42,109 bases of DNA from Candidatus Bathycorpusculum termitum (GTDB lineage Archaea > Thermoproteota > Bathyarchaeia > Bathyarchaeales > Bathycorpusculaceae). The translations under genes were made by a program, and so were the position numbers. A model generated the notes under the pieces. That model was not told the DNA's origin and ran no database searches. It saw nothing but the letters and a program-made list of their open reading frames with translations. The stretch covers positions 1 through 42,109 of the forward strand of contig JAIRTW010000030.1 in the NCBI GenBank assembly GCA_031254875.1. Direction: 5' to 3'. Shown here in pieces: positions 1,442 to 36,286 of this stretch. Each line of letters begins with the position of its first letter. The stretch's first letter is position 1.

Positions 1442-4072
1442 GTGGTGGGTATGGATAATAAGAAGCTGATTGCGGTTTTTGAGGAACGGGGGTTCCTATT
1501 GGATTTTGAGGGCCGGGGAGATGTATCGGCTAAAGATTTGGGGTTGCAAAAGAGTTTTTTGGAAAATCCGTACAAGACGCTTTTTTTCTTTGGCTTTAAA
1601 CCTATAGGCGACCTAAGCGATGGCGTGAAGTTTCTTCATGTCCTTTCTGAAAAAATGATAAGTAAAATTTCGTTGCAAAATGACATCGAATTTACCCGTG
1701 AAAACACAGAATTTGTTTTCACCGACGAGGAAATTAAGGATTTACTGTTATCTGTTCCTTTTGTACCCGGGATGGAGAATGCTAATAAACTGTGGTTACT
1801 TGAAATTTTTAGTCAGCTTGAACAAGTATTTAAAAGCATTATCGCAACATATGATGGAACCGTTCAGCGGTTTTTAGCTGAACACCGATCAAATTTAACC
1901 GTAATGGGCCGAGTGTTTTTTCATTTAGTTGAGAGCAAAACCGATGCCCTGCCTTTTGCTTTTTTGGCAACATACTCAACAAAATCCGAGAAGGGAAAAG
2001 TAAATCATGTCCCGCTGAAAAGTGCTTTACTTGAGTATAGAGAACAAACGACTAAACTGCTAGAATTGCTTTCCACAGTTAGTCAAGCGGTTCAAAGAAG
2101 TGAATTGATCTCCCAGCTAGCAGAATCAGGAGAATTATTCAGTCCCCTTAGATTCTCCGCGGACGAAGCTTATACATTTTTGAAGGAAGTGCCACTTTAT
2201 GAGCAATCCGGCATTATTTGTCGAATTCCTGATTGGTGGCGAAAAAAACAAAATCAAATCGGGGTAAATGTAACCATTGGAGAAAAGGGCATATCAAAAG
2301 TGGGAAAAAAAGCGATTTTAAGCTTTAACCCCCAGATCATATTGGGCGAGGATGCCTTAAGTGAGGAAGAAATAACTTTTCTGCTGTCTCAGGCGGAAGG
2401 TTTGATTTTCTTAAAAGGAAAATGGGTCGAAGTTGACCACGATAAATTAAAACAAGCCCTTGAAATCATGGAAAAAGCTAAACAATATGCTGGGGGTGAT
2501 TCCATTGGCATCTTTGAGGCCCTGCGTCTGGAAATGGAAACCGCAAAGCTACTAAACCTATCCGATGTCAGCATGGTTGAAATTTCAAACGGCGAATGGC
2601 TAACCTCTGCTCTTGAGAAAATTAAAAAACCCGAAAAAATTAAAAATATTTCCTCCGGAGACGAATTTAAAGCTGTTCTAAGACACTATCAACAAGCAGG
2701 TCTGAATTGGCTGACTCTGATGATAGAAATGGGCTTTGGCGCATGCCTTGCTGATGATATGGGTTTGGGAAAAACCGTTCAGATCATAGGCTTACTGGAA
2801 TATTTACGAATTTCACAAAAACAAAAAAACCCCTCCCTTATAGTAATCCCTGCCTCGCTTATAGGCAACTGGAAAACTGAACTCGAAAAATTTGCACCCA
2901 ATATCAAATACAAAGTTTTGCACCATAAATCCAATGTTGAAATTGATAATACTTACAATCTATACATCACAACATACACCATGGTTAGTAAGCTTACACC
3001 TGTTTTGAATGCCGAGTGGAATTTATTGATTCTAGACGAGGCGCAAGCTGTCAAAAATCCTGGCACCAAGCAGACCAAGGCAACAAAACGCATAAAGGCA
3101 AATTCGCGGATAGCCATGACTGGAACGCCAATTGAAAATAGGTTAACTGATCTTTGGTCGCTTTTTGATTTTTTGAATGCTGGGCTTTTGGGGAATATGT
3201 CAGAGTTTAAAACTTTTGTTAATAGGCTAAAAGATCATGGAAATGATTATGGCCGGTTGCGTTCGGTTGTATCTCCTTTTATTTTGCGGCGCCTTAAAAC
3301 TGACAAGTCGGTAATTTCTGATTTGCCCGACAAGATTGAGATGAAAACATATACCCATCTCAGTAAGAAGCAGGTTGTTTTGTACCAGGATTTTGTTGAT
3401 GAGTTGGAAGTAAAACTCGGGGATGCAGATGAGGGCATTGCTCGAAAAGGTTTGATTCTTACAAGTATTTTGCGTTTAAAGCAAATATGTAATCATCCGG
3501 ATCATTATCTTGGGCAATCAGAATATGATGAGCAGTATAGTGGGAAATTCATACAACTGAGAAATATATGTGAGACGATTTACGAGAAACGTGAGCGGGT
3601 TTTGGTGTTTACGCAATTTAAAGAAATTATAAATCCGCTTGATGATTTTCTTGAGAATATATTTGAGCGTCGGGGATTGATTCTGCATGGCGGCACACCC
3701 GTTAAAAAACGTCAAGGCATTGTTGAACGCTTTTGCGGCAGAGAATATGTTCCATACATGATTTTGTCCCTAAAAGCCGGGGGTGTGGGGCTTAATCTAA
3801 CCAAAGCAAATCATGTGATACATTTTGACCGTTGGTGGAATCCTGCGGTTGAAAATCAGGCAACTGATCGCGCGTTTCGCATTGGTCAGAAGAATAATGT
3901 TTTGGTTCACAAATTTATCTCCGCCAATACCATTGAGGAAAAAATTGATTTGATGATTGAGGAAAAAGTAAAGCTATCAGGCGATATTATTGGGGCTTCG
4001 GGGGAAAACTGGATTACAGAAATGAGCAATAGCGAATTAATGAAGATATTTCGCATGTCGGGGGATAAATAA
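1442..4072 (+). CDS. SNF2/RapA-family ATP-dependent helicase-like protein
   Basis: A superfamily 2 DNA translocase of the Swi2/Snf2 group, expected to remodel protein-DNA or RNA polymerase complexes. The C-terminal half holds the ATPase: Walker A in ADDMGLGKT near residue 440, the box II motif LDEAQAVKN near 530, MTGTPIENR soon after, ILRLKQICNHP, and the final helicase motif QATDRAFRIGQ near 806. The first 400 residues have no motif I recognise and may hold the helicase-associated domain. Start is either GTG at 1442 or ATG at 1451; the two are in frame. The stop overlaps the SWIM-domain gene's ATG by one base, so the two are surely co-transcribed. Confidence 0.92.
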   Translation: MVGMDNKKLIAVFEERGFLLDFEGRGDVSAKDLGLQKSFLENPYKTLFFFGFKPIGDLSDGVKFLHVLSEKMISKISLQNDIEFTRENTEFVFTDEEIKDLLLSVPFVPGMENANKLWLLEIFSQLEQVFKSIIATYDGTVQRFLAEHRSNLTVMGRVFFHLVESKTDALPFAFLATYSTKSEKGKVNHVPLKSALLEYREQTTKLLELLSTVSQAVQRSELISQLAESGELFSPLRFSADEAYTFLKEVPLYEQSGIICRIPDWWRKKQNQIGVNVTIGEKGISKVGKKAILSFNPQIILGEDALSEEEITFLLSQAEGLIFLKGKWVEVDHDKLKQALEIMEKAKQYAGGDSIGIFEALRLEMETAKLLNLSDVSMVEISNGEWLTSALEKIKKPEKIKNISSGDEFKAVLRHYQQAGLNWLTLMIEMGFGACLADDMGLGKTVQIIGLLEYLRISQKQKNPSLIVIPASLIGNWKTELEKFAPNIKYKVLHHKSNVEIDNTYNLYITTYTMVSKLTPVLNAEWNLLILDEAQAVKNPGTKQTKATKRIKANSRIAMTGTPIENRLTDLWSLFDFLNAGLLGNMSEFKTFVNRLKDHGNDYGRLRSVVSPFILRRLKTDKSVISDLPDKIEMKTYTHLSKKQVVLYQDFVDELEVKLGDADEGIARKGLILTSILRLKQICNHPDHYLGQSEYDEQYSGKFIQLRNICETIYEKRERVLVFTQFKEIINPLDDFLENIFERRGLILHGGTPVKKRQGIVERFCGREYVPYMILSLKAGGVGLNLTKANHVIHFDRWWNPAVENQATDRAFRIGQKNNVLVHKFISANTIEEKIDLMIEEKVKLSGDIIGASGENWITEMSNSELMKIFRMSGDK

Positions 4073-4791
4073 TGGGCTATTGGGGTTACTTTGAATATGA
4101 AACAGTTGCCCAAAAAATCGCAAAGGCAAAAAAACAACTCGAAAAACTAAAAAAAACCAATCCCGATATTTGCCCAGTTATTATTGAGGGCCGCACCATC
4201 GCGAAATCATGGTGGGGAAAAGCTTGGACCGAAAACCTTGAGAGCTATGCAGATTATTCAAACCGCATAGGACGCGGCAGAAGTTATGTGAGAAACGGGT
4301 TTGTAATAGATTTAAAAATCGAAGCAGGACAAGTATGTGCACTAGTTTGCGGCAGCAGCGCTACACCCTACCGAGTGAAAGTATCGATCCAGCCGCTTCT
4401 AAAAGAAAAACTAACCAGCCTGGCAAAACTCTGCAACAATCAGATAAACGGCTTGGAAGAACTCGTAGAGGGTAGATTTCCCAAAGACCTCGAAGAGCTA
4501 TTTACGCAAAAAAACCAGGGCTTATTCCCATCAAATAGAGAAATACAGTTCAGTTGTTCCTGTCCTGACTCAGCATATATGTGTAAACATGTATGCGCGG
4601 TTTTATATGCAATTGGTGCAAAATTTGATTCCGACCCCACCCTATTTTTTAAGCTTCGAAGCATTGAATTTAAAGTATTTTTAGCAAAAACCGTGGAGGA
4701 AAAAATGCACAGTATGTTAAAAAACGCCGGAAAAACCAGCAAACGCGTAATAGCTGATGAAGAAGTAACAACCCTTTTCGGCATACTGTAA
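4072..4791 (+). CDS. SWIM zinc-finger protein paired with the SNF2 helicase
   Basis: A 239-residue protein with a SWIM-type zinc finger near residues 160-175, seen as the C-x-C, C-x-H arrangement CSCPDSAYMCKHVC. SWIM domains bind DNA or proteins. The N-terminal part contains TIAKSWWGKAWTENLESY, a segment typical of SWIM proteins encoded beside SNF2 helicases in bacteria and archaea (family knowledge from memory). The one-base TAATG overlap with the helicase suggests translational coupling and a complex in which this protein supplies target binding. The substrate is unknown. I see no nuclease or methylase in the same operon. Confidence 0.88.
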   Translation: MGYWGYFEYETVAQKIAKAKKQLEKLKKTNPDICPVIIEGRTIAKSWWGKAWTENLESYADYSNRIGRGRSYVRNGFVIDLKIEAGQVCALVCGSSATPYRVKVSIQPLLKEKLTSLAKLCNNQINGLEELVEGRFPKDLEELFTQKNQGLFPSNREIQFSCSCPDSAYMCKHVCAVLYAIGAKFDSDPTLFFKLRSIEFKVFLAKTVEEKMHSMLKNAGKTSKRVIADEEVTTLFGIL

Positions 4792-5343: not shown

Positions 5344-6519
5344 TTGAATGGGAAACCACTCGTCAGCATAATTAGTGCTGGCATGACTAAATTTGGCAAG
5401 CATGAGGGCTTATTAACCCGAGAACTTTTCGCTGAAGCGGCTTTAGAGGCGTTTGGCCGTTGTCCCAAACTTGAACCCAAACAAGACATCAAAGCCATGT
5501 TTATTGGGCATATGGGTGAGGCCTATGAGCATCAAGGACACACCGGTAGCACATTGGCCGATTGGGCGGGACTCACAGGCATCGCCGCCACCCGCACCGA
5601 AGCCGCCTGTGGAAGTTCAGGTGCCGCCCTGCGCTCAGGCATATATGCAGTTCTCTCGGGCTTAGCTGATGTTGTTATTGTGGGTGGAGTAGAAAAAATG
5701 ACCCATCGAACCACCGCGGAGGTCACTGAATACCTTGCAATGGCCTCAGATTACCCCTTTGAACAGTTCCACGGGATCACTTTTCCAGGACTATTTGCAT
5801 TGATGGCAAACGCACACATGCATGCCTATGGCACCACTGAAGAGCAAATCGGTATGGTTGCAGTCAAAAACCACTACCACGGCACCCTCAACCCCAAAGC
5901 ACAAATGCAAAAAGAAGTCGCTCTCCAAAACGTCCTATCTTCCAAATATGTGGCCTGGCCGCTTAAACTCTACGACTGCTCCCTTATAACAGACGGTGCG
6001 AGCTGCATAATTCTAACAAAGCCCGAACTCGCCAAAAAATACACCGACCAACCCGTCCACATAGTAGGCAGTGGACAAGCCAGCGACACCATCGGACTCT
6101 ACGAACGCCAAACCTTTACTTCACTAAACGCCACCAAACTGGCCGCAAAAGAAGCCTACGAAATGGCCAACATTACCCCCAAACAGGTTAACCTTGCCGA
6201 GGTCCATGACTGCTTCACCATAGCAGAAATCCTGCATTATGAAGACCTGGGCTTCTGCAATACCGGCGAAGGCGGCAAACTCGTCGAGACCGGCGCAACC
6301 CGTCTCGGAGGAACCATACCCGTCAACACCAGCGGCGGACTCAAATCCAAAGGGCACCCCGTCGGCGCAACAGGCACCGCACAGGTCTATGAAATGTATC
6401 TACAACTCACCGCACAGGCCGATAAACGCCAAGTCAAAGACGCCGAAGTCGGGTTAACGCAAAACCTTGGCGGTTCAGGTGCAACTGCAACAGTGCACAT
6501 CTACAGGAGAGACAATTAA
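5344..6519 (+). CDS. Thiolase-family protein (acetyl-CoA acetyltransferase type)
   Basis: A 391-residue thiolase-superfamily enzyme that would form or cleave a beta-ketoacyl-CoA, probably acetoacetyl-CoA. The nucleophilic cysteine sits in EAACGSSGAAL (about Cys89). The second active-site region EVHDCFTIAE is near residue 285, and the GHPVGATG histidine loop is near 336. It uses a TTG start preceded by GGGAGG. The stop overlaps the ATG of the DUF35 gene, the usual archaeal partner. In archaea such thiolase-DUF35 pairs often work with HMG-CoA synthase in the mevalonate pathway, but no synthase gene is in this window. A role in lipid precursor synthesis or acyl-CoA degradation is therefore open. 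Confidence 0.9.
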   Translation: MNGKPLVSIISAGMTKFGKHEGLLTRELFAEAALEAFGRCPKLEPKQDIKAMFIGHMGEAYEHQGHTGSTLADWAGLTGIAATRTEAACGSSGAALRSGIYAVLSGLADVVIVGGVEKMTHRTTAEVTEYLAMASDYPFEQFHGITFPGLFALMANAHMHAYGTTEEQIGMVAVKNHYHGTLNPKAQMQKEVALQNVLSSKYVAWPLKLYDCSLITDGASCIILTKPELAKKYTDQPVHIVGSGQASDTIGLYERQTFTSLNATKLAAKEAYEMANITPKQVNLAEVHDCFTIAEILHYEDLGFCNTGEGGKLVETGATRLGGTIPVNTSGGLKSKGHPVGATGTAQVYEMYLQLTAQADKRQVKDAEVGLTQNLGGSGATATVHIYRRDN

Positions 6520-6917
6520 TGAGCACAACAGAACCGTTTACAATTGAGCAATTCTACAAGTTCCTCACAACAAATCAACTGATGGCCGGAAAATGCACAA
6601 AATGCGGAAAAATCCATCTGCCACCCAGACCCCTCTGCAATAACTGCTTCTCCAAAGAATTCATCTGGACACCTATTACAGGAAAAGGCAGACTCCTCAC
6701 ATACACCACGATCCAAGTAGCACCCGAACAGTTCCAAGCATTAACACCCTATGCTGTGGGTATCGTTGAACTCGAAGGTGGCTTGAAAATTCCCGGCATA
6801 ATACAAAATATAACTAAGGAACAACTTAAAATCGGCATGGAACTAACACTGGACTTTGGCACGCATACTTCGTCTCAAAATTGGCCGATATGGCACCGCT
6901 ATCACTTCAAACCCTAA
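6519..6917 (+). CDS. DUF35 OB-fold, zinc-ribbon acyl-CoA-associated protein
   Basis: A 132-residue partner of the thiolase. The N-terminus has a rubredoxin-like zinc ribbon, CTKCG and then CNNC at about residues 27-45, followed by an OB-fold with GKGRLLTYTTIQVAPEQF, typical of the family. In the archaeal acetoacetyl-CoA thiolase/HMG-CoA synthase complex the DUF35 protein bridges the two enzymes and binds CoA (known biology of the family). The ATG overlaps the thiolase stop, so expression is coupled. No further operon member follows. Confidence 0.9.
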   Translation: MSTTEPFTIEQFYKFLTTNQLMAGKCTKCGKIHLPPRPLCNNCFSKEFIWTPITGKGRLLTYTTIQVAPEQFQALTPYAVGIVELEGGLKIPGIIQNITKEQLKIGMELTLDFGTHTSSQNWPIWHRYHFKP

Positions 6918-7273
6918 GTAATTCTTTTGGTCACATACACTTTTCAGTTTTTTAAATCTGACCATTCTCCAAGGTCGTGAACTGTGAATAGAGCACCTGC
7001 AAAGTTACAACAAAGCTTCTTGTGAACATTATTTTGATGTGGAAATTTTCAAAATTAATTTTACTATACCCACACTGGTGGGGGTTCCGTCGATCATTGG
7101 AAAATCTCTAAATTCAGGAAGAGAGAAAAACCTCGATCCCAGAACCCTCACCAACCAAGTTAAGGATTGACTGCTTGATTTAGCTTTTGGTAGCTTTTCA
7201 TTTTGCACACAGAGCCCCTGTCTTTGGGAAAAGGTTTTTTGGTATCGTGTGCTATTGGGAGGAGGCTGAAAGC
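6918..7273 (+). other. Intergenic region with a short hairpin
   Basis: No gene seen. A hairpin CCCAC-ACTG-GTGGG at 7069-7082 directly follows a TATA-like TTTACTATA. It could be part of the promoter or leader of the DUF1638 gene, whose GGAGG lies at 7261-7265. A reading frame upstream of 7274 is in frame with the gene but lacks conserved content. Confidence 0.4.
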
Positions 7274-7882
7274 ATGGCGTCTCAAAGTTCTGTTTGTATT
7301 GTCTCTTGTAGTGTCCTCAAAGGGGAGCTCAGGCAACTCAGAGCCGAAGGCAAATTGGATGCTGAATTGGTGTTTGTAAGCAAAAACTTTCACGTTGACT
7401 ATACCCAACTGGAAAGCAATCTCCGCAGGATGCTTGTACACACCAAAAATCGGTTCAACGGCAAAATTGTGTTGCTCTACGGTGACCTCTGTTTGGGTCA
7501 GGATGGAGAAATGGAAAAGTTAGCCCAAGAGCACGGTGTTGTTAAAGTGGATGCACTGAATTGTATTGACTGTCAACTTGGCGGTAGAGGCAAAAGCTTG
7601 GAACTGAATCCTGAGCATAACTTGATGTTTATGGGGCCGGGTATGATAGAGTTCTTTGCTGATATGAAGCGGAGCCTCAAACAACAAGGCATAGATGAGA
7701 CAGCTATTAGAGGACTGTTTAGCGGTATCAAAGGCATTGTGCTTTTGGATACCTGCGGCGGTAAAGAGAAACTTTTGAATGCCCTAAAAGAGATCGACAT
7801 ATCACTTGAGGTGCTGGAAACCAAAGAGGGCGGCTCTGATAATGTGTTGCGGGTGGTTTTAGATGCAGTCGAGCGCACTTAG
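7274..7882 (+). CDS. DUF1638-family protein
   Basis: A protein of about 202 residues that resembles the DUF1638 family of anaerobic archaea and bacteria. It starts IVSCSVLKGEL, has VLLYGDLCLG in the middle followed by NCIDCQLGGRG, and later has MFMGPGMIEFF. The conserved cysteines suggest metal or corrinoid-related chemistry. In methanogens such proteins occur near methylamine methyltransferase genes (recollection). I chose the ATG at 7274 because GGAGG lies eight bases upstream; the frame is open upstream but without conserved sequence. There is no methyltransferase neighbour here, so no function is assigned. Confidence 0.75.
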   Translation: MASQSSVCIVSCSVLKGELRQLRAEGKLDAELVFVSKNFHVDYTQLESNLRRMLVHTKNRFNGKIVLLYGDLCLGQDGEMEKLAQEHGVVKVDALNCIDCQLGGRGKSLELNPEHNLMFMGPGMIEFFADMKRSLKQQGIDETAIRGLFSGIKGIVLLDTCGGKEKLLNALKEIDISLEVLETKEGGSDNVLRVVLDAVERT

Positions 7883-7995: not shown

Positions 7996-10900
7996 GTGGA
8001 TGTGTGCCTCATGACTCAAACTCTTGAATCGGCTCCTGTGTCCCAGGCTATGAAACGTGTTGAAGACTGGAAATCCCGTCTAATTGATTTATCTCGGAAA
8101 AATAACTTGCTCTATTTCCGTAAAACAAAACGCGGTAATCTCACAATCACTCAGCCTGATGCCCAAAAGATTTTTGATACCCTTGTTGTAAAAACTGGCC
8201 GATTAGAATTCTATATGCCGCCTGCACCTAAACCAACAAAAACTGAGCAAACAGCGACCGATAAGTCCAAGGCAAAAGGTAGCACAAAGACTAAGCCAAA
8301 CAGCAAAACTAAAGGAACCCCCGCCATAGTTGAGCCTGAAGCGGAAGCTAAAACCGCAAAAGCGCCCGTCAAAGCCGCCACCATAGAGGAGACGCCTAAA
8401 CGGCCCAGCGTAAATCAGCTGGTCTTGGATAAACTCACATATATTGAAGTTGATCGAGCCCTCAAAGCCTTGGAGAGACGTTCATTGCTGGATTATCGTG
8501 AAAGGGGCGTTCGTATATTGTATGCAGCGTTTGGAACCTTGAATTGGGTAGATGTAGAAACCAAGGAAAATGTACAATCGCCGCTGATTTTAGTGCCGCT
8601 TGAAATCGGCAAAGAAACCATCCGTGCCCCCTACAGCATCGCTGTTCCCCCGGTAGAAGACGAAGCAGTGCTAAATCCCGCGTTAGCCGCAAAACTCTAC
8701 AATGATTATCGTATAGATCTACCATCCTTGCCCGAAGATTGGGAAGAACAAACGCTCACAGACTACTACCGCCAAGTTGAAGCCGCCGTGTCTAAGATGG
8801 GCTGGAAAACTGAGGCTTCCATCAATTTAGGGTTATTTTCCTTCCAAAAGTTAGTCATCTACAAGGACCTTGAATCCAACACCCAAATGGTAACTCAACA
8901 TCCTATCATCCGTGCCATCGCAGGCATCAAAGAAGAAAGTCTTATCCAAACCGGCTTACCTGAAGAAAAAGACGTTGACAACATTGAGTTACCCGCCAAA
9001 ACTTATCAGGTGCTTGATGCCGACAGCAGTCAGCGGTTAAGTATCGAATACGCGCTACATGGACAAAGTTTTGTCATGAAAGGCCCTCCAGGCACGGGCA
9101 AAAGCCAAACTATCGCCAACATTATCGCAGAATGCATCGCTAATGGCAAAAGTGTACTGTTTGTCAGTGATAAGATGGCTGCGCTTGAAGTTGTGTATAA
9201 GCGTTTAAGCGAGGTGGGATTAGCCCATTTCTGCTTGGAAATGCATAGCAGTAAAGCCAACAAGCAACAGGTTGTGGCAGAACTCAAACGTAGTCTTGAT
9301 GAAAATCTTGTTCCCCGCAAGTTGCCCTCCAATCATGAGTTTGATAGATTAATCGAGTATCGTGAATCCTTAAACGGCTACGTAGCCGCGCTTCATCAAA
9401 AGCGGCCTTATCTGCAACGAAGTGCCCATGAAGTGCTAAGTATCATCTGTAGTCTGGAACGGGTACCTTTCATCCCCGTTGGATTAACTGAGCTCACGAC
9501 GTTGACCCCGCAAAAGATGCGGGAGCTTGAGGAGCTTGTCAGTCACCTCAGTAAGGTCTGGGCAGTGGTTGATGAAGCCGACTTTCCTTGGGTGGGCTAC
9601 AGAGCCGATAAGTATGATCTTGAAATCCGAAGTGAAGTCCTGACCACATTAGAGGCCATTAATCAAACCTTCCGTGAGCTTGAATTGGAAACCGAGGACT
9701 TTTCGGCTAGACTGGGCGTGTTTCCCCCCGAGAGCTTTACACGCATCCAGTGGCTGATAGCTGTCAGCGGTTTTCTCTATGAAAGCCCCAAACCCGAACA
9801 GTCCTGGCTTCTTAGCCCTGCCTTAGATAAACTCTTAGGGGAAGCTCGTGCATATCTTGAAGTCACCACTTGGATAAAGACAACCCGTGCCAGTCTTATG
9901 GAGCGCTATACGCCTTTGCTCTTTGAGTTGGTTTTGACTCGTTCGCAGGAACTCCAGCAGGCTATAACTAATGTGGGTAAGGTGTCTGGGATTGGGGGTT
10001 TGCAGGAGAGTTTGTTGCTGGTTAAGCGTGAAAAGTTTCTTGCTTATCTTAAGAGCATGGGGGTGATGGTGCGGAAATGGCGGGAAACCTCTCAGGCTCT
10101 TGCACCTATGTTGGGGTTGGATAGTGAGGGTTTGACGATAGGTCAGTTAAAGCAGCTTGCTCGTATGGCGCAGTTGTGTTTTGCGGAGGATAAGCCTGAG
10201 CCTCAGTGGTTTAACGCAGATTATCTTGCTGAGGTTTCAGAGATGGTGGGTAAGGCTAAGGGGCTCTATGAGGAGCACGGGCTGCTTAGGGGCAGGTTGG
10301 GTGAAACCTATAGTGAGGGTATCTATAAGCTTAATCTGGATGATTTAATCACCAAGTACAGTGGACCCTATCAGGGTGGTATTAAACTCTTTAACAGTGA
10401 ATATCGTAACGATCAAAAACGTATTGCTCAGGTCACACATGAGGGTAGAGTTCCCAAAACAGTGTTAGAGGATTTAGTGGATGCACGTAAGGTTAACAAG
10501 TTGGCTAAAAGAATTGCGGATTCTGCGGATATGGTTCAAACTCTGCTGGGTCGCTACTATCATAAGAGCCGTACAAATTTTAAGGGAGCCGAAAAAGCCA
10601 TAGCGCTCACCGATGAGATCAGAAAACTAAATTGGGCCACAACCATACCTGAACCGTTACTTAAAATCCTCACCACCCCTACAACCCCTGCGCCGATGAT
10701 TAAAAACTTGGGTGAGGATCTTCAGAATTCTGTGGCTAAGTGGGAACAGCATACCAAAGACTTTGAATCGTTAATGCCAAAGACCATACCTAAGGCTGAA
10801 AAGAGCCTCACAGAAACGTCGTTGCTTCAGTTAGAGGAGTGGGTTATTGAAACCGAAAAGCAACTGGGGGTTCTTTGTAGCCTGACTAATCAGACTTTAA

Positions 10901-13728
10901 CTGTTGCTAGGGTGGAGCCTCAAAGTTACAAGCATCTTGTTGAGGATCTCAAAAATGCTGAGTCTATTCGTAAAAAAGAGGCCCAGATCATAGGTGAAAA
11001 GGCCCAGTTGCAGGAGAAATTTGGTGTGCGTTTCCAAGAAATGCAAACTGATTGGCAAGCAATTGTGTCTGTGTTGGAGTGGGTGCAAAGGGTTCAGGGG
11101 GCGTTTGGCGATTTACCGGTGCCGGAGGCGTTTGCCGAGTTTGCTGCTCAAGGAGTTGCAGCGGCACCTTCCAATGCAGAGTTGATTGCGCGGCGGGATG
11201 CTTCGCTTGGGGTGCTTGCAGACTTTGAGAAGCGCTTTGAATCTGAGATGCGCTATCATGACCAAAAGTTAGTTGACTGTGATATGCAAGTTATAGCGGA
11301 ACGCATAGCTGTGCTTCGTGATCGGGTAGATGATTTGCAGGTCTGGATAGACTACAAAGACACCAAAACCCGCTTCATCCTGCGCGGTCTTGATGGCTTC
11401 TTTGAGCGTCTTGTTGAACAAAAGCCTCCTGCAGCAGATTTGGTGGCTATTTTCCGCAAAAGCACCTATCAGGAGTGGATAAACAACCTCTACACCGAAG
11501 ATGCCCAACTCGGCAAATTCCGCCGCGAAAATCATGAACAGCTCATTGCCGATTTCAAAAAACTCGACCAAGACCTCATAGGCTTAACCTCAGCTATGGT
11601 TATCGATGCGGCTAATAGCCGCAAACCCCAAGACATACTTATCCAAGCTGCTGATGCTGAAGCTGGTGTTCTCTCCAAAGAAGCCGCAAAGAAACGCCGC
11701 CTTATGCCTCTGCGTATGCTTTTCCAAAAAATCCCAAACCTCCTTGTTAAACTCAAACCCTGCCTGCTGATGAGTCCCATCTCAGTAAGCCAATTTCTGC
11801 CCCCGGACCTAAAATTCGACTTGGTTCTCTTTGATGAAGCCTCCCAACTGGTTCCCGAAGACGCCATAAGCGCCATCTACCGAAGCCGAACCATCGTGGT
11901 GGCAGGCGACAACAAACAACTCCCCCCCACCTCTTTTTTCCAAAAGAACCTAATAGACGATAAAGACTGGGATGAACTAACCGACGAAAGCATCGAAGTC
12001 TTTGACAGCATCCTTGACGAATGTTTAGGTATCGGCTTACCTGTAAAAACCCTAAAGTGGCACTACCGAAGTCGACACGAAGGCCTCATCGCCTTTAGCA
12101 ATCACCGTTTCTACGATGACACCATGATAACTTTCCCCTCAGCCAAAGCCCAAACCGACGGCTTAGGCGTCAAACTCGTACACGTTCCCGGCGCCACCTA
12201 TGACCGAGGCGGCAACCGCGACAACCCCGCCGAAGCCCAAAAAGTCGCTGACTTGGTCTTTGAACACTTCAAAACCTATCCCAAAAAAACTCTTGGCGTT
12301 GTCACGTTTAGCATTGCCCAAATGGAAGCTGTCGAAGAAGCCATAGAACGCCGCCTAAAAGAGCACCCCGAGTTTGAGCATTTCTTCAAAGAAGACCGTA
12401 TCGATGGTTTCTTTGTTAAAAACCTCGAAAACGTGCAAGGTGACGAGCGCGATGTCATCCTTTTTAGCGTCGGCTATGGCTATGATCAAAACGGACAGAT
12501 AACTATGAATTTTGGTCCGCTCAACAAGCCCGGCGGCGAACGTCGATTAAATGTCGCTGTTACCCGTGCAAGAGAAAAAGTGGTGCTCATCACCTCCATC
12601 AAAGGCGCAGACATCGACTCTGAGGTTCAATCGTTAGGCGTTCAAACTCTGCGTACCTATCTTGACTATGCTGAGCAGGGTATAGATTCGCTCAATCGGG
12701 TTAAGACTAAGGAGGGGGGCTTTGATTCTGCGTTAGATGAAGATGTGGCTAATGAAATCAAAAAGCTGGGGTATGCCTTAGTGCTTGAAGTTGGGTGCAG
12801 TGGTTGTAAAATCGACATAGGGGTCCTTGATCCTGTGAGTAAAGGTCACTACCTCTTAGGGGTTGAATGTGATGGATATACCTATAAATCCAGTAGCAGC
12901 GCCCGGGATCGTGATCGGCTCCGTGAGCAGGTTTTGCGTCAGCTGGGTTGGCGTATTCATCGTATTTGGGCGCCTGCTTGGGTTGCAAGACGGGATAGTG
13001 AAATCCGGAGACTAAAAGAAGCCATAGAGCAAGCACAGGTACAGCAAATAGAGCAAGACTCCCAAAGTTCTCTTAGTGCACCGGTTTTGGATGTTCAGAG
13101 AAATCAGTATGGGGGTATTGAAAAGTTGGGTGTGCCCTACAAGGTTTATCCGCTCAAAGCCACCTATAACCCCTACATCAAAGCGCAAACTGCCAAAGCC
13201 AATGTAGATAGCCGTGTTAAAAACGAATTCCACTTCCCTGAGAACCGTGAAAACCAAACTAAACTCTTAGGGGATCTAATAGCCAATGAGGGGCCGCTTC
13301 ATTTTGACTATGCAGTGGGGCGGCTGGCAGCAACTTGGGGTATAAAGCAAATAACCCCCAAAATTAACCATGCCGTAAAAGAAGCCCTCAATAACTTGTT
13401 GCGCCAGCAAAAAGTCACCATCAAAGGCAGCTTTTTGTGGCCGGCAGGACTCAAAGAAACCCCCCTCAGAGTACCCACACCGGGAGTTCCTGAATCTAAA
13501 CGCAAACCCCAATACATCGCTCCTGAAGAAGTTGAAACTGCTATGAAACAAGTAGCCCAATACGCTTTAGGTATAAGTGATGATTCGTTGGTTGCAGAAA
13601 CTGCCAAGGTATTTGGTATAAGTCATGGAGGCGAAGAAGCCAAAACGGTCTTCTCAGAAGTGCTCAAGCGGCTAATACGGGAGCGCAAACTCGTTTGCCG
13701 GGAGGATGGCGTTGTAACCATCCCTTAA
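7996..13728 (+). CDS. Giant DUF4011-helicase-nuclease-DUF3320 protein, possible defence protein
   Basis: A 1,910-residue multidomain protein. Order: DUF4011 start (WKSRLIDLSRKNNLLYF, residues 25-41); a Lys/Ala/Thr-rich linker (75-130) that looks inserted; superfamily 1 helicase Walker A GPPGTGKSQT near 363; a long helical insertion; DEASQLVPEDA near 1280; VAGDNKQLPP; RRLNVAVTRARE near 1516; a Vsr/DUF559-like PD-(D/E)XK nuclease with KIDIGV near 1605 and ECDGYTY near 1624; and DUF3320 (EGPLHFDYAVGRLAATWG) near 1765. From memory, this architecture has been listed among single-protein antiviral systems in bacteria. Start is GTG 7996 or ATG 8011; neither has a clear ribosome site. A TATA-like AAATATTA near 7953 supports separate transcription. 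Confidence 0.93.
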   Translation: MDVCLMTQTLESAPVSQAMKRVEDWKSRLIDLSRKNNLLYFRKTKRGNLTITQPDAQKIFDTLVVKTGRLEFYMPPAPKPTKTEQTATDKSKAKGSTKTKPNSKTKGTPAIVEPEAEAKTAKAPVKAATIEETPKRPSVNQLVLDKLTYIEVDRALKALERRSLLDYRERGVRILYAAFGTLNWVDVETKENVQSPLILVPLEIGKETIRAPYSIAVPPVEDEAVLNPALAAKLYNDYRIDLPSLPEDWEEQTLTDYYRQVEAAVSKMGWKTEASINLGLFSFQKLVIYKDLESNTQMVTQHPIIRAIAGIKEESLIQTGLPEEKDVDNIELPAKTYQVLDADSSQRLSIEYALHGQSFVMKGPPGTGKSQTIANIIAECIANGKSVLFVSDKMAALEVVYKRLSEVGLAHFCLEMHSSKANKQQVVAELKRSLDENLVPRKLPSNHEFDRLIEYRESLNGYVAALHQKRPYLQRSAHEVLSIICSLERVPFIPVGLTELTTLTPQKMRELEELVSHLSKVWAVVDEADFPWVGYRADKYDLEIRSEVLTTLEAINQTFRELELETEDFSARLGVFPPESFTRIQWLIAVSGFLYESPKPEQSWLLSPALDKLLGEARAYLEVTTWIKTTRASLMERYTPLLFELVLTRSQELQQAITNVGKVSGIGGLQESLLLVKREKFLAYLKSMGVMVRKWRETSQALAPMLGLDSEGLTIGQLKQLARMAQLCFAEDKPEPQWFNADYLAEVSEMVGKAKGLYEEHGLLRGRLGETYSEGIYKLNLDDLITKYSGPYQGGIKLFNSEYRNDQKRIAQVTHEGRVPKTVLEDLVDARKVNKLAKRIADSADMVQTLLGRYYHKSRTNFKGAEKAIALTDEIRKLNWATTIPEPLLKILTTPTTPAPMIKNLGEDLQNSVAKWEQHTKDFESLMPKTIPKAEKSLTETSLLQLEEWVIETEKQLGVLCSLTNQTLTVARVEPQSYKHLVEDLKNAESIRKKEAQIIGEKAQLQEKFGVRFQEMQTDWQAIVSVLEWVQRVQGAFGDLPVPEAFAEFAAQGVAAAPSNAELIARRDASLGVLADFEKRFESEMRYHDQKLVDCDMQVIAERIAVLRDRVDDLQVWIDYKDTKTRFILRGLDGFFERLVEQKPPAADLVAIFRKSTYQEWINNLYTEDAQLGKFRRENHEQLIADFKKLDQDLIGLTSAMVIDAANSRKPQDILIQAADAEAGVLSKEAAKKRRLMPLRMLFQKIPNLLVKLKPCLLMSPISVSQFLPPDLKFDLVLFDEASQLVPEDAISAIYRSRTIVVAGDNKQLPPTSFFQKNLIDDKDWDELTDESIEVFDSILDECLGIGLPVKTLKWHYRSRHEGLIAFSNHRFYDDTMITFPSAKAQTDGLGVKLVHVPGATYDRGGNRDNPAEAQKVADLVFEHFKTYPKKTLGVVTFSIAQMEAVEEAIERRLKEHPEFEHFFKEDRIDGFFVKNLENVQGDERDVILFSVGYGYDQNGQITMNFGPLNKPGGERRLNVAVTRAREKVVLITSIKGADIDSEVQSLGVQTLRTYLDYAEQGIDSLNRVKTKEGGFDSALDEDVANEIKKLGYALVLEVGCSGCKIDIGVLDPVSKGHYLLGVECDGYTYKSSSSARDRDRLREQVLRQLGWRIHRIWAPAWVARRDSEIRRLKEAIEQAQVQQIEQDSQSSLSAPVLDVQRNQYGGIEKLGVPYKVYPLKATYNPYIKAQTAKANVDSRVKNEFHFPENRENQTKLLGDLIANEGPLHFDYAVGRLAATWGIKQITPKINHAVKEALNNLLRQQKVTIKGSFLWPAGLKETPLRVPTPGVPESKRKPQYIAPEEVETAMKQVAQYALGISDDSLVAETAKVFGISHGGEEAKTVFSEVLKRLIRERKLVCREDGVVTIP

Positions 13729-13730
13729 TT

Positions 13731-14416
13731 TTACGCTATTTTTGTTATTAAACTCGGCAACTCGACTAATGAGGTTAGGATATAGTTGGCGCCATTTTTT
13801 ATCAGCTGTTCTTTAGTTGAGATGCCGGTGGGTAATCCGATTGCGAGGACTTTGAGGTCTTTGGCGCTTTGCATATCTATGATACTATCCCCAACAACCA
13901 CTGCGGCATCAGAGGGGACGGCGAGGGTTTTTAGGGCCAGTTCAAGCTGTTCAGTGTCGGGTTTAACCCGTTTTACTTCGTCGCGTGTAACTATGGCTTG
14001 AAAATATTCTCGGATTTTGAAGCGATTTAGAATATAGTCAGCAGTCATTTTGTTGCTAAGGGTGCATAAGCCCAGTTTTAGATTCATTTTTGTGAGTTCT
14101 TTTAGGGCTTCTAGGGCACCAGGCATTAGACTGGTGACGGCAGCGGCTTCTTTTTCATATTTTTCGGCGATGGCTAGACACTGGGTCTGTACGTCACAAA
14201 AAACTGGGGGTTTAGTGTTGTTTCTAAAGTAGATTTTGACCTTCTGCAACATATCAAAGATGCTTTCGTTAACAGGCAACACTGAGGGGGCATGTCGATT
14301 CTTAGGAGGTACTCTCGGACTTCTCCACGCAGGGCCTTGTAGTCTAAGTTGAAAGCAGTTAGGGTTCCATCCATATCAAATATGACTGCTTCGAGGGGCA
14401 TAAAGGGGCACTCCAT
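13731..14416 (-). pseudogene. HAD-family phosphatase (phosphoglycolate phosphatase-like), frameshifted
   Basis: Two reading frames together encode one HAD hydrolase of about 228 residues. The N-terminal frame (from 14416) carries motif I, FDMDGTLTAFNLDY. The C-terminal frame carries motif II (TLSNK), motif III (KRVKPD) and motif IV (VVGDSIIDMQSA). They join at a run of five G (14286-14290 on the plus strand); one more base there would give a continuous protein reading through MPPSVLPVNES. All catalytic motifs are intact, so this is either a sequencing indel or a very recent mutation. The start may be 14416 or ATG 14401, which has GGAG upstream. Confidence 0.85.
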
Positions 14417-16249: not shown

Positions 16250-16954
16250 ATGAGACCTCAGATTCAATTAGTCATTATAGGACTTGCAGCGCTTATGATC
16301 GGTTTAGCCGTTGCTTATCCATTGTTTAATTCAAACATCAACACAGACCCAAAATATCCAAATGGCCGCGCCCAAATAGACTTAGATGTTGCTTACGCCT
16401 ATTTTTCAACTCAGCCCGTTAGCGAAAACATTGAAAGTCTCTATAGAAACAACAAAGACCCCGCATCAATTCAAGATACTATAGGAAGCTTTTTTGTAGT
16501 CCTCAATATCACAAACTACTCCAACGTCTCAGTAATAATGAACGAGTTTTTCATCAGTGCAGCCAAAGAGATGAACATCACATACACACCCAACCAAGGC
16601 AGTGCACACATAACCTACCCCTTCTTCATCTATCGCCAAATAGAGAATAACCAACAAAACAGGTTTACCTCAGCCGATGACCTGACTTGGAAACCGTATG
16701 AATCAAGACTGGTAGCCTTATCAGGAATCACCCAATTCGCAAATCGCACACTTTTAGAAACTGGAACATTTTACATAGGCGGTCAAGTTGCAGGCGATGT
16801 AATTGATGGTCTTTCATCCCAAGGCGGCGGCTCAAAATTGATCCATATGGAACGGTTTGGCAACGAATACCTCTATAACAACCTGGTTGGCAAAAATGAA
16901 ATGCTCCGCTTATATTATTCTTCAAGTTTAGTGGCGGTTGGTCCAAGGAGTTAA
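16250..16954 (+). CDS. Membrane-anchored extracellular protein of unknown function
   Basis: A 234-residue protein with an N-terminal hydrophobic segment (residues 6-25: a signal anchor) and an otherwise polar body with several N-x-S/T sites, which fits export and glycosylation. The segment FFVVLNITNYSNVSVIMNEF resembles a beta-sandwich strand pair. There is no ribosome site before the ATG, so the transcript may be leaderless. The next gene (wHTH-membrane) starts five bases after this stop and its AAGGAG lies inside this gene's last codons, so the two probably share an operon. I recognise no family. Confidence 0.75.
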   Translation: MRPQIQLVIIGLAALMIGLAVAYPLFNSNINTDPKYPNGRAQIDLDVAYAYFSTQPVSENIESLYRNNKDPASIQDTIGSFFVVLNITNYSNVSVIMNEFFISAAKEMNITYTPNQGSAHITYPFFIYRQIENNQQNRFTSADDLTWKPYESRLVALSGITQFANRTLLETGTFYIGGQVAGDVIDGLSSQGGGSKLIHMERFGNEYLYNNLVGKNEMLRLYYSSSLVAVGPRS

Positions 16955-18780: not shown

Positions 18781-18975
18781 TTATAGTTTGTAGCCGCAGT
18801 GCTTTATCCCGCCTTTAACATCCGCAGCAGTTATAGTGTCTAAAGCTTGTGAAAACATCTCTTCAACTCCTCTGCCGCCCTGCCCGGCGAGCGGTAGATA
18901 TGCTGGATTGCTTTGTAGATCGTATATTTCAATAAATTTAATTAACGTAGGCAGGTACATCTTAGTAAATCTCTT
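18781..18975 (-). mobile_element. IS630-family transposase remnant (C-terminal end)
   Basis: The minus strand reads YLPTLIKFIEIY, then in a shifted frame KAIQHIYRSPGRAAEELK, then MFSQALDTITAADVKGG, and ends IKHCGYKL before a TAA at 18781-18783. This is the ordered C-terminus of IS630/Tc1-type DDE transposases: the YLP..NPIE region, the basic helix, then a [W]xKHCGY end. At least two frame breaks show it is dead. The next surface-protein gene starts 14 bases beyond it in the opposite direction, so the remnant probably supplies that gene's promoter DNA. Family call is by motif order. Confidence 0.65.
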
Positions 18976-18988
18976 TGAGCTTTGGCAG

Positions 18989-20362
18989 ATGAAGGATTCG
19001 CTTAAGAAACTGTTCTCCAAACGCGCCCTTATCATCGTTCTTGTAGCTTTGCTTATCCTCTCGGTTCTCAATACTTATTTGATTTTGGAGGGCACCCGTA
19101 GCGCGATGAGAACCAATGTGGCGAATTATGATTTTGTACTCTCCCAGGAGGGTTCGACTCTTAAATTAAAAAATATGCTTACCGGATATGTGTCTCAGCC
19201 TAAAAGCGCCCAGGAAGCACTCAATTGGGCGTTACAGGAGGGCAATTCAGTTTACATAAACCGGGGCACCTACACTCTAAGCGGTGATGTAACTGTTATA
19301 AATAAGTTGAATGCCCGAATCGTTAGTGACGAGGCGGTAATCAAGGGTAACGGGTACAAAATCATCATTTACGGCACTGACTACACTTTCTCGCAGGATG
19401 CATTAATTTCGGGTTTAACCATCATAAATGGAACCCTACATGTCGAAAACTCGTTTGCCACAACCATAACTAACATAAAATTCATCAATGCATCCACAGG
19501 TATTGAATTTTTAAATACTAACACGTGGAGCGAATATAACAAAATTGAGGGTTGCCGATTTATCAACATCACAGAGGGTATTGTTTTTCGCACGCCCATA
19601 AATGGTACCCAAATTGGCAATGACATTGGAAACGCAACGGGCTCTTATGCCAGTTCCATAATTGAGCGTTGTAGTTTTAATCTCCAAGACTTCTCGGCAG
19701 GTATTAAAGTTGAACAGTATGCGGAATTTTCTGATTGTCTACTGCAGAATCTGCGTTTTTGGATGGGGGAAAATGATCAACGCAGTAACCAAACCGCCTT
19801 GATAGTAGATGGTTCCATGTACCAAACAGTGCTTTTTAATGTTGTGTTTGAATCATTCACAGATGACCCCATTTATATATTTGCTATCGATGTCGGCGAA
19901 AATTGTGATCCAACACCTATTCTTGGCAGTGGCGTCAGCTTCTTAGGTAACTGGACATCAAAAATACACAGCCCTTTTGCAACCTGGCTTTCTGGCACCG
20001 GCACCGTGTTTAAACGCGAAGCCCCCGTTCCCGTTGGAACCAACGAAGAATACGGCGAAACACAAAGTCTTGAATGCCGTCCGCTGACAATTTCAAGCTT
20101 TAAACCCAAAATTGATGTCACAGGAATCAAAACAGATGAAATAATCACCATTAGAGTGCGAATTGAATACATCGACAACACTATATCCAAAAGTGTAACC
20201 CGCGCCTTTATCACAAGCGGCTCAGCATGGCTTAGCGACGATGACATGATGCAACTATTCTCATCGCAGAGTATAATCTGGGCAATCCTTGTGGACGCCA
20301 AATCAAATGTTGCATCCACAAACGCAAAAGTTACAGTGAGCAGCTACGGCACAGCAACATAA
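18989..20362 (+). CDS. Cell-surface protein with right-handed beta-helix fold
   Basis: About 457 residues. After a short basic N-terminus comes one hydrophobic helix (ALIIVLVALLILSVLNTYLI), a membrane anchor or signal. The body shows the pattern of parallel beta-helix proteins: AQEALNWALQEGNSVYINRGTY is the usual opening, followed by rungs rich in GLTIING, NIKFINAS, GCRFINI. It may bind or cut polysaccharide, but I see no catalytic signature. I chose ATG 18989; the frame is open upstream to 18836 but that part is the antisense of an IS630 remnant. A TATA-like tract lies near 18922-18940. No neighbours in an operon. Confidence 0.8.
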   Translation: MKDSLKKLFSKRALIIVLVALLILSVLNTYLILEGTRSAMRTNVANYDFVLSQEGSTLKLKNMLTGYVSQPKSAQEALNWALQEGNSVYINRGTYTLSGDVTVINKLNARIVSDEAVIKGNGYKIIIYGTDYTFSQDALISGLTIINGTLHVENSFATTITNIKFINASTGIEFLNTNTWSEYNKIEGCRFINITEGIVFRTPINGTQIGNDIGNATGSYASSIIERCSFNLQDFSAGIKVEQYAEFSDCLLQNLRFWMGENDQRSNQTALIVDGSMYQTVLFNVVFESFTDDPIYIFAIDVGENCDPTPILGSGVSFLGNWTSKIHSPFATWLSGTGTVFKREAPVPVGTNEEYGETQSLECRPLTISSFKPKIDVTGIKTDEIITIRVRIEYIDNTISKSVTRAFITSGSAWLSDDDMMQLFSSQSIIWAILVDAKSNVASTNAKVTVSSYGTAT

Positions 20363-25671: not shown

Positions 25672-26673
25672 TCAGACAGGCGGCTTGCCAATTTTTTTAC
25701 AAGTCAGAGTCTTCATCCACTGCTTAAACTCACCCGATACAGGGTGATCCTGAAAGAGCTGCCGACGCTTGGACTCCAAAAAGACATTTTCTTGTCCTGC
25801 ATACTCCGCGGCAGTCAAGACAGTATGTTCGAATTTTTGGGCTTTAACAAAAACCCGCTCCAGCTTTGAACACCAAAACTCATCCCGCAACACATGATGA
25901 TCCAAAACAACCACCGGCACCGCCTCCACAAGCCGCTCCAGATTTTGCAGTCCCTGCTCTAGTTGCGCTTCCTCCACACGGAACCCTGCAAGGTAGAGCG
26001 GCGGACCCCCAAGCATAAGTAAGGCAGGTTTTGCCGCCAAAATAAGCTCAGTTGTATGAATTGACATTGGCCCCTGCACATCGGGCGCAAACATGAGCCG
26101 CTCATTATCGTGCTCTACCGTTGCCATAATCACCCAGCCTAACATGCCATCCTTTGCGCCATGTACCACCGCCTCTGAGAAACTCAGTTTTGTTTTGCCA
26201 AAAGTAAAGGTTCTGCCGTCTGCTGCTTCCACTGTTTTAGCGTATCTACCGGCGGTTTTTTGGAACATCCAAGCCCGTTGCCGCTGGCTTGCATTAATGT
26301 TTTCTTTGGGATTTTTGGCCAGCACAATTTTGTTTTGGTAGATTTGGCGAGCGGTTTCATCTCCAGCTGTCCAGTTTACAACCCAATCTTCATAGCTTGG
26401 CGTGTGATGGTCGAAGTGGTAGTGGCTGATAGTTGTTACGGCTGCTTTGTCAGCGGCGTCTGCGATAACTTTTCGGAGATGCTGAATGGTTTGGAATTCA
26501 ATGGGGTGCGGCGGCAGATTAAACCGGTAGGGACATAAAGAGACACCTGCGTCCAGCAATACGGCTGTGTCGGGGGTTTCAATAAGTGTGCACATGGAGC
26601 GGACACCCAAACTCTCTGATGCCAAAGGCACAACCTTAATTTTGCTTAGCGGAATACCGGATTTCGGTTCCAT
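25672..26673 (-). CDS. UPF0282-family metallo-beta-lactamase-fold protein
   Basis: A 333-residue archaeal protein of the UPF0282 family. It contains VVPLASESLGVRSMCTLIE near the start and the metal motif SHYHFDHH near residue 82. The later HGAKDGMLGWVI and FAPDVQGPM segments carry further metal ligands. This fold hydrolyses phosphodiester, ester or lactam bonds; the family's substrate is unknown. It is divergently transcribed from the AK6 gene, with about 130 bases between the two starts. No operon partner. Confidence 0.88.
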   Translation of the reverse strand: MEPKSGIPLSKIKVVPLASESLGVRSMCTLIETPDTAVLLDAGVSLCPYRFNLPPHPIEFQTIQHLRKVIADAADKAAVTTISHYHFDHHTPSYEDWVVNWTAGDETARQIYQNKIVLAKNPKENINASQRQRAWMFQKTAGRYAKTVEAADGRTFTFGKTKLSFSEAVVHGAKDGMLGWVIMATVEHDNERLMFAPDVQGPMSIHTTELILAAKPALLMLGGPPLYLAGFRVEEAQLEQGLQNLERLVEAVPVVVLDHHVLRDEFWCSKLERVFVKAQKFEHTVLTAAEYAGQENVFLESKRRQLFQDHPVSGEFKQWMKTLTCKKIGKPPV

Positions 26674-29176: not shown

Positions 29177-29205
29177 GACCTGTAATTGTATGGTTGCGAA
29201 TGCTA
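29177..29205 (+). repeat. 29-bp sequence repeated inside an IS630 remnant at 34.3 kb
   Basis: The 29 bases from GACCTG to GAATGCTA occur exactly again at 34300-34328 on the opposite strand. Seven more bases to the left also match after a one-base gap. The start codon of the surface-protein gene at 29190 lies inside this repeat, so its first five residues, MVANA, come from it. See the finding. Confidence 0.75.
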
Positions 29206-30821
29206 AATCCAAGTGTGGTTTACACGGCGTTTATAACAGAAATTTGTTATTTGTTTCTTTGTTATTATTTGTATTGTTGATTTCTTCGTTGTTTGCTTGC
29301 GTGCTGTTTGTGGGTGCTGAGGATTCTTCTTTGGCAAATGTTGTGCATGTTGGAACCGAGGATGAACTTGGGCTGGCTGTTAGAAACACAGAACCAAAGA
29401 TACACGTGATTATTGCGCTTGATATCGATATTACACTCACAGAGGCACTTACCATTCCCGCTAATAAGAATATTACACTGCTAAGTAAGGGGGCGAGTGA
29501 GCTTTTCAGGCTGGTTGGTGCCTCTGATGAGAATACAGTTATTGTTGAGGATCAGGGCGTGTTGGAACTTGCAGGTATTATTGTAACGCATGCAAAAGAT
29601 GCTGATGGCCGGGGGGTAGTTGTTCAACCCGGCGGGACACTTATCCTGTCGGGGGGTGTGATTTCCGGCAACACAATCAGCGAGGATGGCGGCGGCGTAC
29701 ACAACAGTGGCAACTTTAGTATGTCTGGAGGCGTGATTTCCCAAAACACAGCCGGAGGTTATGGCGGCGGCGTACACAACAGTGGCAACTTTAAGCTATC
29801 GGGGGGTGTAATTTCCGGCAACATAGCTAACGGTTCTTATAGGGGTTATGGTGGTGGCGTACATAATGTCGAGGGGACCTTTAGCATGTCGGGAGGCACC
29901 ATCACCCAAAACACAGCCAACATTGGCGGCGGCATATACAACTACTTTGGAAACGTCAGTTTATCGGAAGGAGAGATTACCCAAAACACAGCCAACTATG
30001 GCGCCGGCGTGTACAACTATGGCAACTTTATATTGAAGGGCACAATTTCCGAAAACACAGCCAACGGTTCGTATAGTGGCGGCGGCGGAGTATACAACTT
30101 TGGCAACTTTACTATACATGAGGGCACAATTTCCGAAAACACAGCCAACTATGGTGGCGGGGTACACAACAGCTACGATGGCAGCTTTATCATGCTTGAC
30201 GGCACAATCCTAAACAATAAAGCCATAGACGGCGGCGGCGTATATATGGAAGAGGGCTTTTTTGATTTACTCGGCGGCAGAATCACAGGCAACATAGCAT
30301 CAAACAACGGCGGCGGAATCTGGATTGACGCTGAAAATCTTGACGAACTCTATGTTGCTGAGGGGGTAATATTTTCAAACAACCACGCTTCAACAGCATA
30401 CGATAGAGACCCAACACATAACGAAGTGTACAACTCACAAATAGAGGATAAGGTCATCTGGACAACCCCATTTACACAGGGTTACAATAATTACGATATC
30501 AGCTATACAAACGGACCCCCATTTTCTGACCCAACCAATCCTAGTCCTAGTCCTAGTCCTAGTCCTAGTCCTAGTCCTAGTCCTAGTCCTAGTCCTAGTC
30601 CTAGTCCTAGTCCCAGTCCTAGCTCAAATCCTACCTCTAGTCCTAGTCCCAGTCCTAGCTCAAATCCTACTTCCAGTGTCCAACCTGACCCGCGTTCCAG
30701 TGTATCCTTAGAGATTGTAGTTGCTGTAGTTCTAACTTTGGGTATAGTTGCGGCTGTTGTTTTGTTTTTTTATTTCAAGAACAAAACCGCTGTTGCCCGT
30801 CGTCTTCGTCATCGTGATTGA
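29190..30821 (+). CDS. Adhesin-like beta-helix surface protein with Pro-Ser stalk and membrane anchor
   Basis: A 543-residue secreted, anchored protein. A signal peptide spans about residues 17-43 (LLFVSLLLFVLLISSLFACV). Residues 135-395 carry about ten polymorphic-outer-membrane-protein-like repeats built from GGGVHNSGNF, SGGVISGNT and ISENTANYGGGV, expected to form a right-handed beta-helix. A Pro-Ser stretch (about 453-490) forms a stalk, encoded by the perfect hexamer array at 30540-30611. A C-terminal helix (IVVAVVLTLGIVAAVVLFFYF) and a positive tail anchor it. Archaeal adhesin-like proteins of this type are common in gut methanogens. Likely attached to cells or polysaccharide. Promoter DNA lies in 28954-29176. 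Confidence 0.88.
   Translation: MVANAKSKCGLHGVYNRNLLFVSLLLFVLLISSLFACVLFVGAEDSSLANVVHVGTEDELGLAVRNTEPKIHVIIALDIDITLTEALTIPANKNITLLSKGASELFRLVGASDENTVIVEDQGVLELAGIIVTHAKDADGRGVVVQPGGTLILSGGVISGNTISEDGGGVHNSGNFSMSGGVISQNTAGGYGGGVHNSGNFKLSGGVISGNIANGSYRGYGGGVHNVEGTFSMSGGTITQNTANIGGGIYNYFGNVSLSEGEITQNTANYGAGVYNYGNFILKGTISENTANGSYSGGGGVYNFGNFTIHEGTISENTANYGGGVHNSYDGSFIMLDGTILNNKAIDGGGVYMEEGFFDLLGGRITGNIASNNGGGIWIDAENLDELYVAEGVIFSNNHASTAYDRDPTHNEVYNSQIEDKVIWTTPFTQGYNNYDISYTNGPPFSDPTNPSPSPSPSPSPSPSPSPSPSPSPSPSPSSNPTSSPSPSPSSNPTSSVQPDPRSSVSLEIVVAVVLTLGIVAAVVLFFYFKNKTAVARRLRHRD
30540..30611 (+). repeat. (CCTAGT)12 hexamer array encoding the Pro-Ser stalk
   Basis: Twelve perfect copies of a six-base unit, followed by imperfect CCCAGT and CCTAGC units. 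Because the unit is six bases, length changes keep the frame and would only shorten or lengthen the Pro-Ser stalk of the surface protein. Slippage here is likely. Confidence 0.9.
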
Positions 30822-36117: not shown

Positions 36118-36286
36118 AACACACCACATCATTTGACTATTCTAAACTATATATTCATTATAGCCAGTATTTCGAGAATTATCAAGCCGCCACAGCAATC
36201 CAAAAGCACAGTAACAGAACCAAACTCAAATTAAATCGCCCCAATAACCAAAACCAGCACAAAAACTGCTTTTTTTACCAGGGGTT

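Follow-up and report, generated by a model that had tools for sequence, protein, structure and literature searches.

A DUF4011-helicase-nuclease gene of a mobile defence-type family is a core gene of the archaeal genus Bathycorpusculum

Related helicase-nucleases and family membership

Several giant helicase-nucleases have been described that resemble the protein studied here. The MTES_1575-type HEPN-transglutaminase-SF1 helicase-Vsr-wHTH proteins have been proposed to work without a modification enzyme (PMC3710099). In Pseudomonas aeruginosa, a DUF4011 giant gene is a core gene found in every isolate examined, where it marks the right flank of core defence hotspot 1 (cDHS1) (PMC10250203). Curated resources name further relatives, namely PDC-S37 and Hhe in PADLOC and ProA and Hhe in NCBIfam; PDC-S37 (PDLC05009) is a candidate family only, and a literature search found no paper naming it. 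The family is already known in archaea, as methanogens and haloarchaeal plasmids carry members, and its occurrence in an archaeon is thus not new in itself.

We analyzed 42,109 nucleotides of contig JAIRTW010000030.1 of Candidatus Bathycorpusculum termitum (this whole stretch is referred to below as the window). Bathycorpusculum is a genus of Bathyarchaeia from termite guts, peat soils, sediments and digesters (PMC10684969). The initial annotation of the window had proposed that an open reading frame at positions 7996-13728 encodes an intact 1,910-residue DUF4011-helicase-Vsr/DUF559-DUF3320 protein, a possible stand-alone accessory defence system. Its architecture and family assignment proved correct. 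DUF4011, a split SF1 helicase, an MTES_1575 endonuclease and a C-terminal wHTH lie in that order on one chain, the arrangement that defines the DUF4011-helicase-Vsr(MTES_1575)-DUF3320 superfamily, to which the protein belongs. PDC-S37 is the top PADLOC match (1437 bits), and Hhe (PDLC02194) follows with 531 bits. The NCBIfam models ProA (NF058533) and Hhe (NF042953) score 1351.1 and 858.5 bits, below their equivalog cut-offs of 1500 and 2000; by the curators' rule, these profile scores indicate a member of the superfamily that is an equivalog of neither. By its profile matches, the protein adds a further archaeal relative to the virus-defence proteins already known.

The alignment to the 1903-residue ProA model is nearly full length, and the domains follow in the same order to the extent that the profile can tell; however, beyond its score under the cut-off, the Bathycorpusculum protein is core and syntenic in its genus. 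Hhe shares DUF4011, the SF1 helicase and the nuclease, aligned over residues 23-1689, but its cut-off lies far above the score reached. The MTES_1575-type giants have in common with our protein the SF1 helicase, the Vsr-family MTES_1575 endonuclease and a C-terminal wHTH overlapping DUF3320, whereas their HEPN domain has no Pfam match in the window protein. The P. aeruginosa core gene, likened by description and not by sequence, offers a precedent for fixation, although it borders a defence hotspot and none was found at the Bathycorpusculum locus.

Domain layout, catalytic residues and predicted folds

The reading frame, on the forward strand, is open and unbroken over 1910 codons from a GTG. 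Translation probably begins at an in-frame ATG at 8011, which would give 1905 amino acids, because the congener proteins start with MTQ, MTE or LTQ at the matching position and, in two of them, stops precede this point. The apparent premature stops in two congener copies (L042 and L047) both lie upstream of this likely start, and no broken or pseudogene copy was found among the copies of the genus.

Pfam bears out the proposed domain order. DUF4011 (PF13195) covers residues 28-234 (8077-8697) with 92.4 bits against a cut-off of 22. The first part of the SF1 helicase, AAA_11, spans residues 343-412 (9022-9231) and contains the Walker A motif GPPGTGKSQT (9082-9111); the Walker B motif DEAS lies at residues 1280-1283 (11833-11844), and the second part, AAA_12, at residues 1348-1534 (12037-12597), is Upf1/SMUBP2/DNA2-like. 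The REase_MTES_1575 domain, a Vsr-like PD-(D/E)XK nuclease, occupies residues 1582-1677 (12739-13026) with 103.4 bits against a cut-off of 38, and conservation places its acidic core at D1607, E1624 and D1626 (12814-12873). The proposed HMM check of four domains thus returned DUF4011, the helicase and MTES_1575 above their cut-offs and DUF3320 (residues 1744-1791; 13225-13368) just below, at 23.8 bits against 25. Of the earlier label Vsr/DUF559 for the nuclease, the Vsr part is upheld, but DUF559 had no match.

In an alignment of 112 archaeal and bacterial homologues, the Walker A residues Lys369 and Ser370 are present in 110 and 111 sequences, respectively, and D1280 and E1281 of Walker B in all 112; the other SF1 motif residues examined vary little or not at all. 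In the nuclease, D1607, E1624 and D1626 are kept in 108, 101 and 111 of the homologues. A separate alignment of 83 C-terminal parts showed conservation of G1600, D1607, (E)1624-C-D1626-G and RDRDR, and the nuclease core, which had been described as complete-looking, is borne out across both sets. The Walker A and B motifs and the nuclease acidic residues are therefore conserved as expected of a predicted active enzyme.

Structure prediction, which had been suggested as a check of the nuclease site, agrees at the level of the fold. An AlphaFold model of residues 1548-1910 (pLDDT 85) was matched by Foldseek to the catalytic domain of I-Bth0305I (3r3p; TM 0.72-0.81 on the target), the putative endonuclease ngo0050 (3hrl; TM 0.75) and Vsr (1cw0; TM 0.52), and its winged-helix domains at about residues 1741-1910 to the winged helices of SelB; all E-values exceeded 0.01, and these matches are read as fold-level hints. 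The DUF4011 region was also modeled confidently (pLDDT 84) except in the linker described below, and a search with its fold found no relative in the PDB.

Within the DUF4011 region lies a Lys/Ala/Thr/Pro-rich linker (about residues 80-137; 8233-8406), which the initial annotation had taken for a low-complexity insertion. This holds: the linker is disordered in the AlphaFold model (pLDDT about 50), occurs only in the nearest congeners, and is shortened or absent in other genera and in bacteria, leaving gaps in most homologues. Its dN/dS of 0.41 compares with 0.03-0.10 in the rest of the protein. By alignment, it is a clade-restricted insertion.

Distribution, inheritance and selection

The gene was found in 31 of 32 Bathycorpusculum species, each represented by one genome, all of them MAGs or drafts; its named relatives, at 83% and 59% identity, are Nitrososphaerota/Candidatus Bathycorpusculum MAGs. 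The sole genome without it (G030) is 60% complete. In the same 32 genomes the RNA polymerase domain of rpoB (PF00562) was detected in 27 and Cas1 above its cut-off in 13. One genome (G026) has a second family copy from a different clade, and a second copy in G028 (C120), scoring identically to that of G004, is probably contamination.

The locus is mostly conserved as well. Upstream in the window lie a thiolase, its DUF35/OB partner and DUF1638 (5344-7882, forward strand), and downstream a convergent HAD hydrolase (13731-14282, reverse strand) that is present in 20 of the genomes. At least one of these flanks is kept in 28 of the 30 genomes checked: the thiolase and/or DUF35/OB partner lies upstream in 25, and three more share the HAD gene only. 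In one genome (G027) the DUF1638-OB-thiolase block lies on the contig of the gene but about 13 kb from it; another (G003), on a short contig, has no shared flank. According to the initial annotation, conserved presence at one housekeeping locus in all relatives would refute a defence role; this pattern, which does not by itself imply that defence has been lost, is nearly reached within the genus and is not seen outside it.

Within the genus the gene has descended vertically. For 26 species, the protein tree has 13 of 23 splits in common with rpoB, against a maximum of three in 1000 label shuffles. Six of the eight strongly supported rpoB splits recur in it, one is contradicted by a strong split, and pairwise distances correlate with r = 0.87. 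A tree built from two neighbouring genes, thiolase and OB, fits less closely (7 of 20 splits; at most two after shuffling) and shows four well-supported conflicts, for which reason rpoB was taken as the reference; some local exchange is possible. Whole-gene dN/dS of 0.05-0.10 in the closest pairs, beyond which synonymous sites are saturated, indicates strong purifying selection, and no sign of diversifying selection was seen in this analysis. The helicase and nuclease blocks are the most constrained (0.03-0.06), so both predicted activities appear to be in use.

These data bear on a reading in which the gene is a selfish or neutral hitch-hiker kept through its linkage to the thiolase operon. 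The linkage to thiolase, DUF35 and DUF1638 is constant enough to suggest it; however, no copy is interrupted within its roughly 1,900 codons, selection is concentrated in the catalytic parts, and the gene persists where linkage differs (L039, L047 and L049). Hitch-hiking is contradicted by the dN/dS values and motif conservation, and we consider it very improbable.

They also bear on a domesticated genome-maintenance enzyme, a former defence helicase-nuclease that would handle the cell's own DNA, such as stalled forks, R-loops or repair intermediates, as related Upf1/SMUBP2/DNA2-type helicases do. Such a role is suggested by a gene that is as universal as rpoB, single copy, syntenic, co-inherited and under purifying selection, and by the sequence relatives of its helicase in the PDB, which are SMUBP-2 (the best), Upf1 and DNA2. 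Against it stands the distribution in the other genera of the family, where only 11 of 59 genomes have an orthologue (49-59% identity) and one more a C-terminal fragment, so that a housekeeping role specific to the genus must be new; homologues elsewhere are mostly sporadic and many are on plasmids. We hold it to be the main rival to defence, although less likely than not. The sequence of events that it would involve, a mobile defence helicase-nuclease domesticated to a genus-wide core gene that now serves cellular genome surveillance or maintenance, seems to us rather unlikely.

The fragment just mentioned is a 215-residue ORF in the interior of a contig (L073:7958-8602, in G095) that corresponds to the last 142 residues at 54% identity and appears to be a relic of a copy that was lost in this sister genus.

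Outside Bathycorpusculum, the expectation of an accessory gene is borne out: presence is patchy, the locus changes from genus to genus, other clades have contributed independent copies, and plasmids carry relatives. The flanks of the orthologues in the sister genera have nothing in common with the Bathycorpusculum locus, but in the genera examined for this (g24, g39, g47 and g25) species of one genus share theirs; no empty target site was found in sister genera, because the thiolase-DUF1638 block is itself not conserved there. In the tree, every Bathyarchaeal orthologue tested falls into a single clade (support 1.0), with Planctomycetota, Obscuribacterales and Actinomycetota as the closest outgroups. 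Two homologues, L061 and L062, belong to other clades. The latter is the second copy in G026 (L062:4223-8416), a distant DUF4011-helicase-nuclease protein with about 42% identity over the helicase-nuclease part. Across the wider phylum occurrence is sporadic. On plasmids, 339 records match, 207 of them predicted conjugative and three haloarchaeal; among phage records there was only one match. Hence the wider family has the behaviour of mobile defence and the Bathycorpusculum copy that of a core gene.

Neighbourhood and proposed function

No defence island was found around the gene in the genus. The earlier remark that no other defence gene surrounds it holds only approximately, because an accessory pair lies 4 kb upstream (1442-4791), an SNF2 (DUF3670) helicase and a SWIM zinc-finger protein whose orthologues are confined to 5 of 32 congeners. 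The pair is ZorD/DpdE-like by PADLOC and under the NCBIfam ZorD cut-off. Its copy in G019 is 82% identical, compared with 62% for the giant proteins of that genome pair, which suggests recent transfer between congeners. The other PADLOC matches in the window, besides this SNF2 protein, are a DUF4143/AAA_14 protein 21 kb away (34855-36132, reverse strand; candidate PDC-S01, 339 bits) and weak generic ATPase or response-regulator types.

Also in the window are two Kelch-repeat proteins (37446-38597 and 40477-41667) with a PIN-domain gene between them (39312-39788), and long ORFs that lack a Pfam match at 16250-16954, 18836-20362, 25672-26673 and 33159-34031. A 543-residue ORF at 29190-30821 has only weak, repeat-like Pfam matches (Trypan_PARP and Chlam_PMP), suggestive of a repetitive surface-type protein.

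The gene might instead be a core gene that marks one edge of a defence hotspot, as the P. aeruginosa gene does at cDHS1. Beyond that precedent, the SNF2-SWIM pair and the spacing between the OB/thiolase genes and the giant gene, which varies among congeners, are what such an edge might produce. The genes inserted beside the locus in congeners, however, are UbiA, LPG synthase, ABC/MacB, TPR and other non-defence genes; this reading is already largely contradicted, and we regard it as improbable.

The best explanation, which we favour with somewhat better than even confidence, is a fixed, modification-independent anti-invader helicase-nuclease. An ancestor of the Bathycorpusculaceae would have acquired the gene, probably from bacteria, and in Bathycorpusculum it would then have become a fixed part of the core genome that acts against invaders. 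We infer that the winged-helix tail and the DUF4011 region would engage foreign or aberrant DNA, for example replication intermediates, that the ATP-driven SF1 motor would load and translocate, and that the Vsr-like nuclease would cut the engaged DNA. The conserved block contains no methyltransferase or partner gene, which is consistent with a single-gene system; as no methyltransferase lies beside the gene, discrimination would rest on the structure or state of the DNA and not on its modification.

Counted for defence were the domain set, motifs and fold, the matches to anti-phage models, the mobility of the wider family, its patchiness in the phylum, the second copy from another clade, the lack of a methyltransferase or partner gene in the conserved block and the strong constraint on helicase and nuclease. 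Counted against it were the near-universal presence at one inherited locus, unusual for a defence gene when Cas1 reaches only 13 of 32 genomes, the missing island, no sign of diversifying selection and the ProA and Hhe scores under their cut-offs. Fixed immunity was ranked over domestication, by a modest margin, because the catalytic parts are fully kept, curated resources name family members as anti-phage, and the sister genera show no housekeeping need for the gene. The earlier proposal of a stand-alone accessory defence system thus stands in part: defence remains the likeliest function and the pattern beyond the genus fits, but the accessory status is weakened by presence in 31 of 32 species, shared flanks in 28 of 30 genomes, co-inheritance with rpoB and purifying selection.

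Most defence genes are gained and lost among close relatives, and here a giant helicase-nuclease whose family is mobile and of the defence type occurs as universally in its genus as RNA polymerase: a defence gene of mobile type has become part of the core genome of Bathycorpusculum. If it still defends, uncultured archaea would possess in it an innate immune gene that is fixed. If it does not, it would show how an immune nuclease can be tamed to tolerate and serve the host chromosome, and domestication, if true, would provide a natural example of an effector of immunity that has taken on housekeeping work. For telling immunity from domestication, the locus supplies about 30 natural orthologues that share a single line of inheritance.
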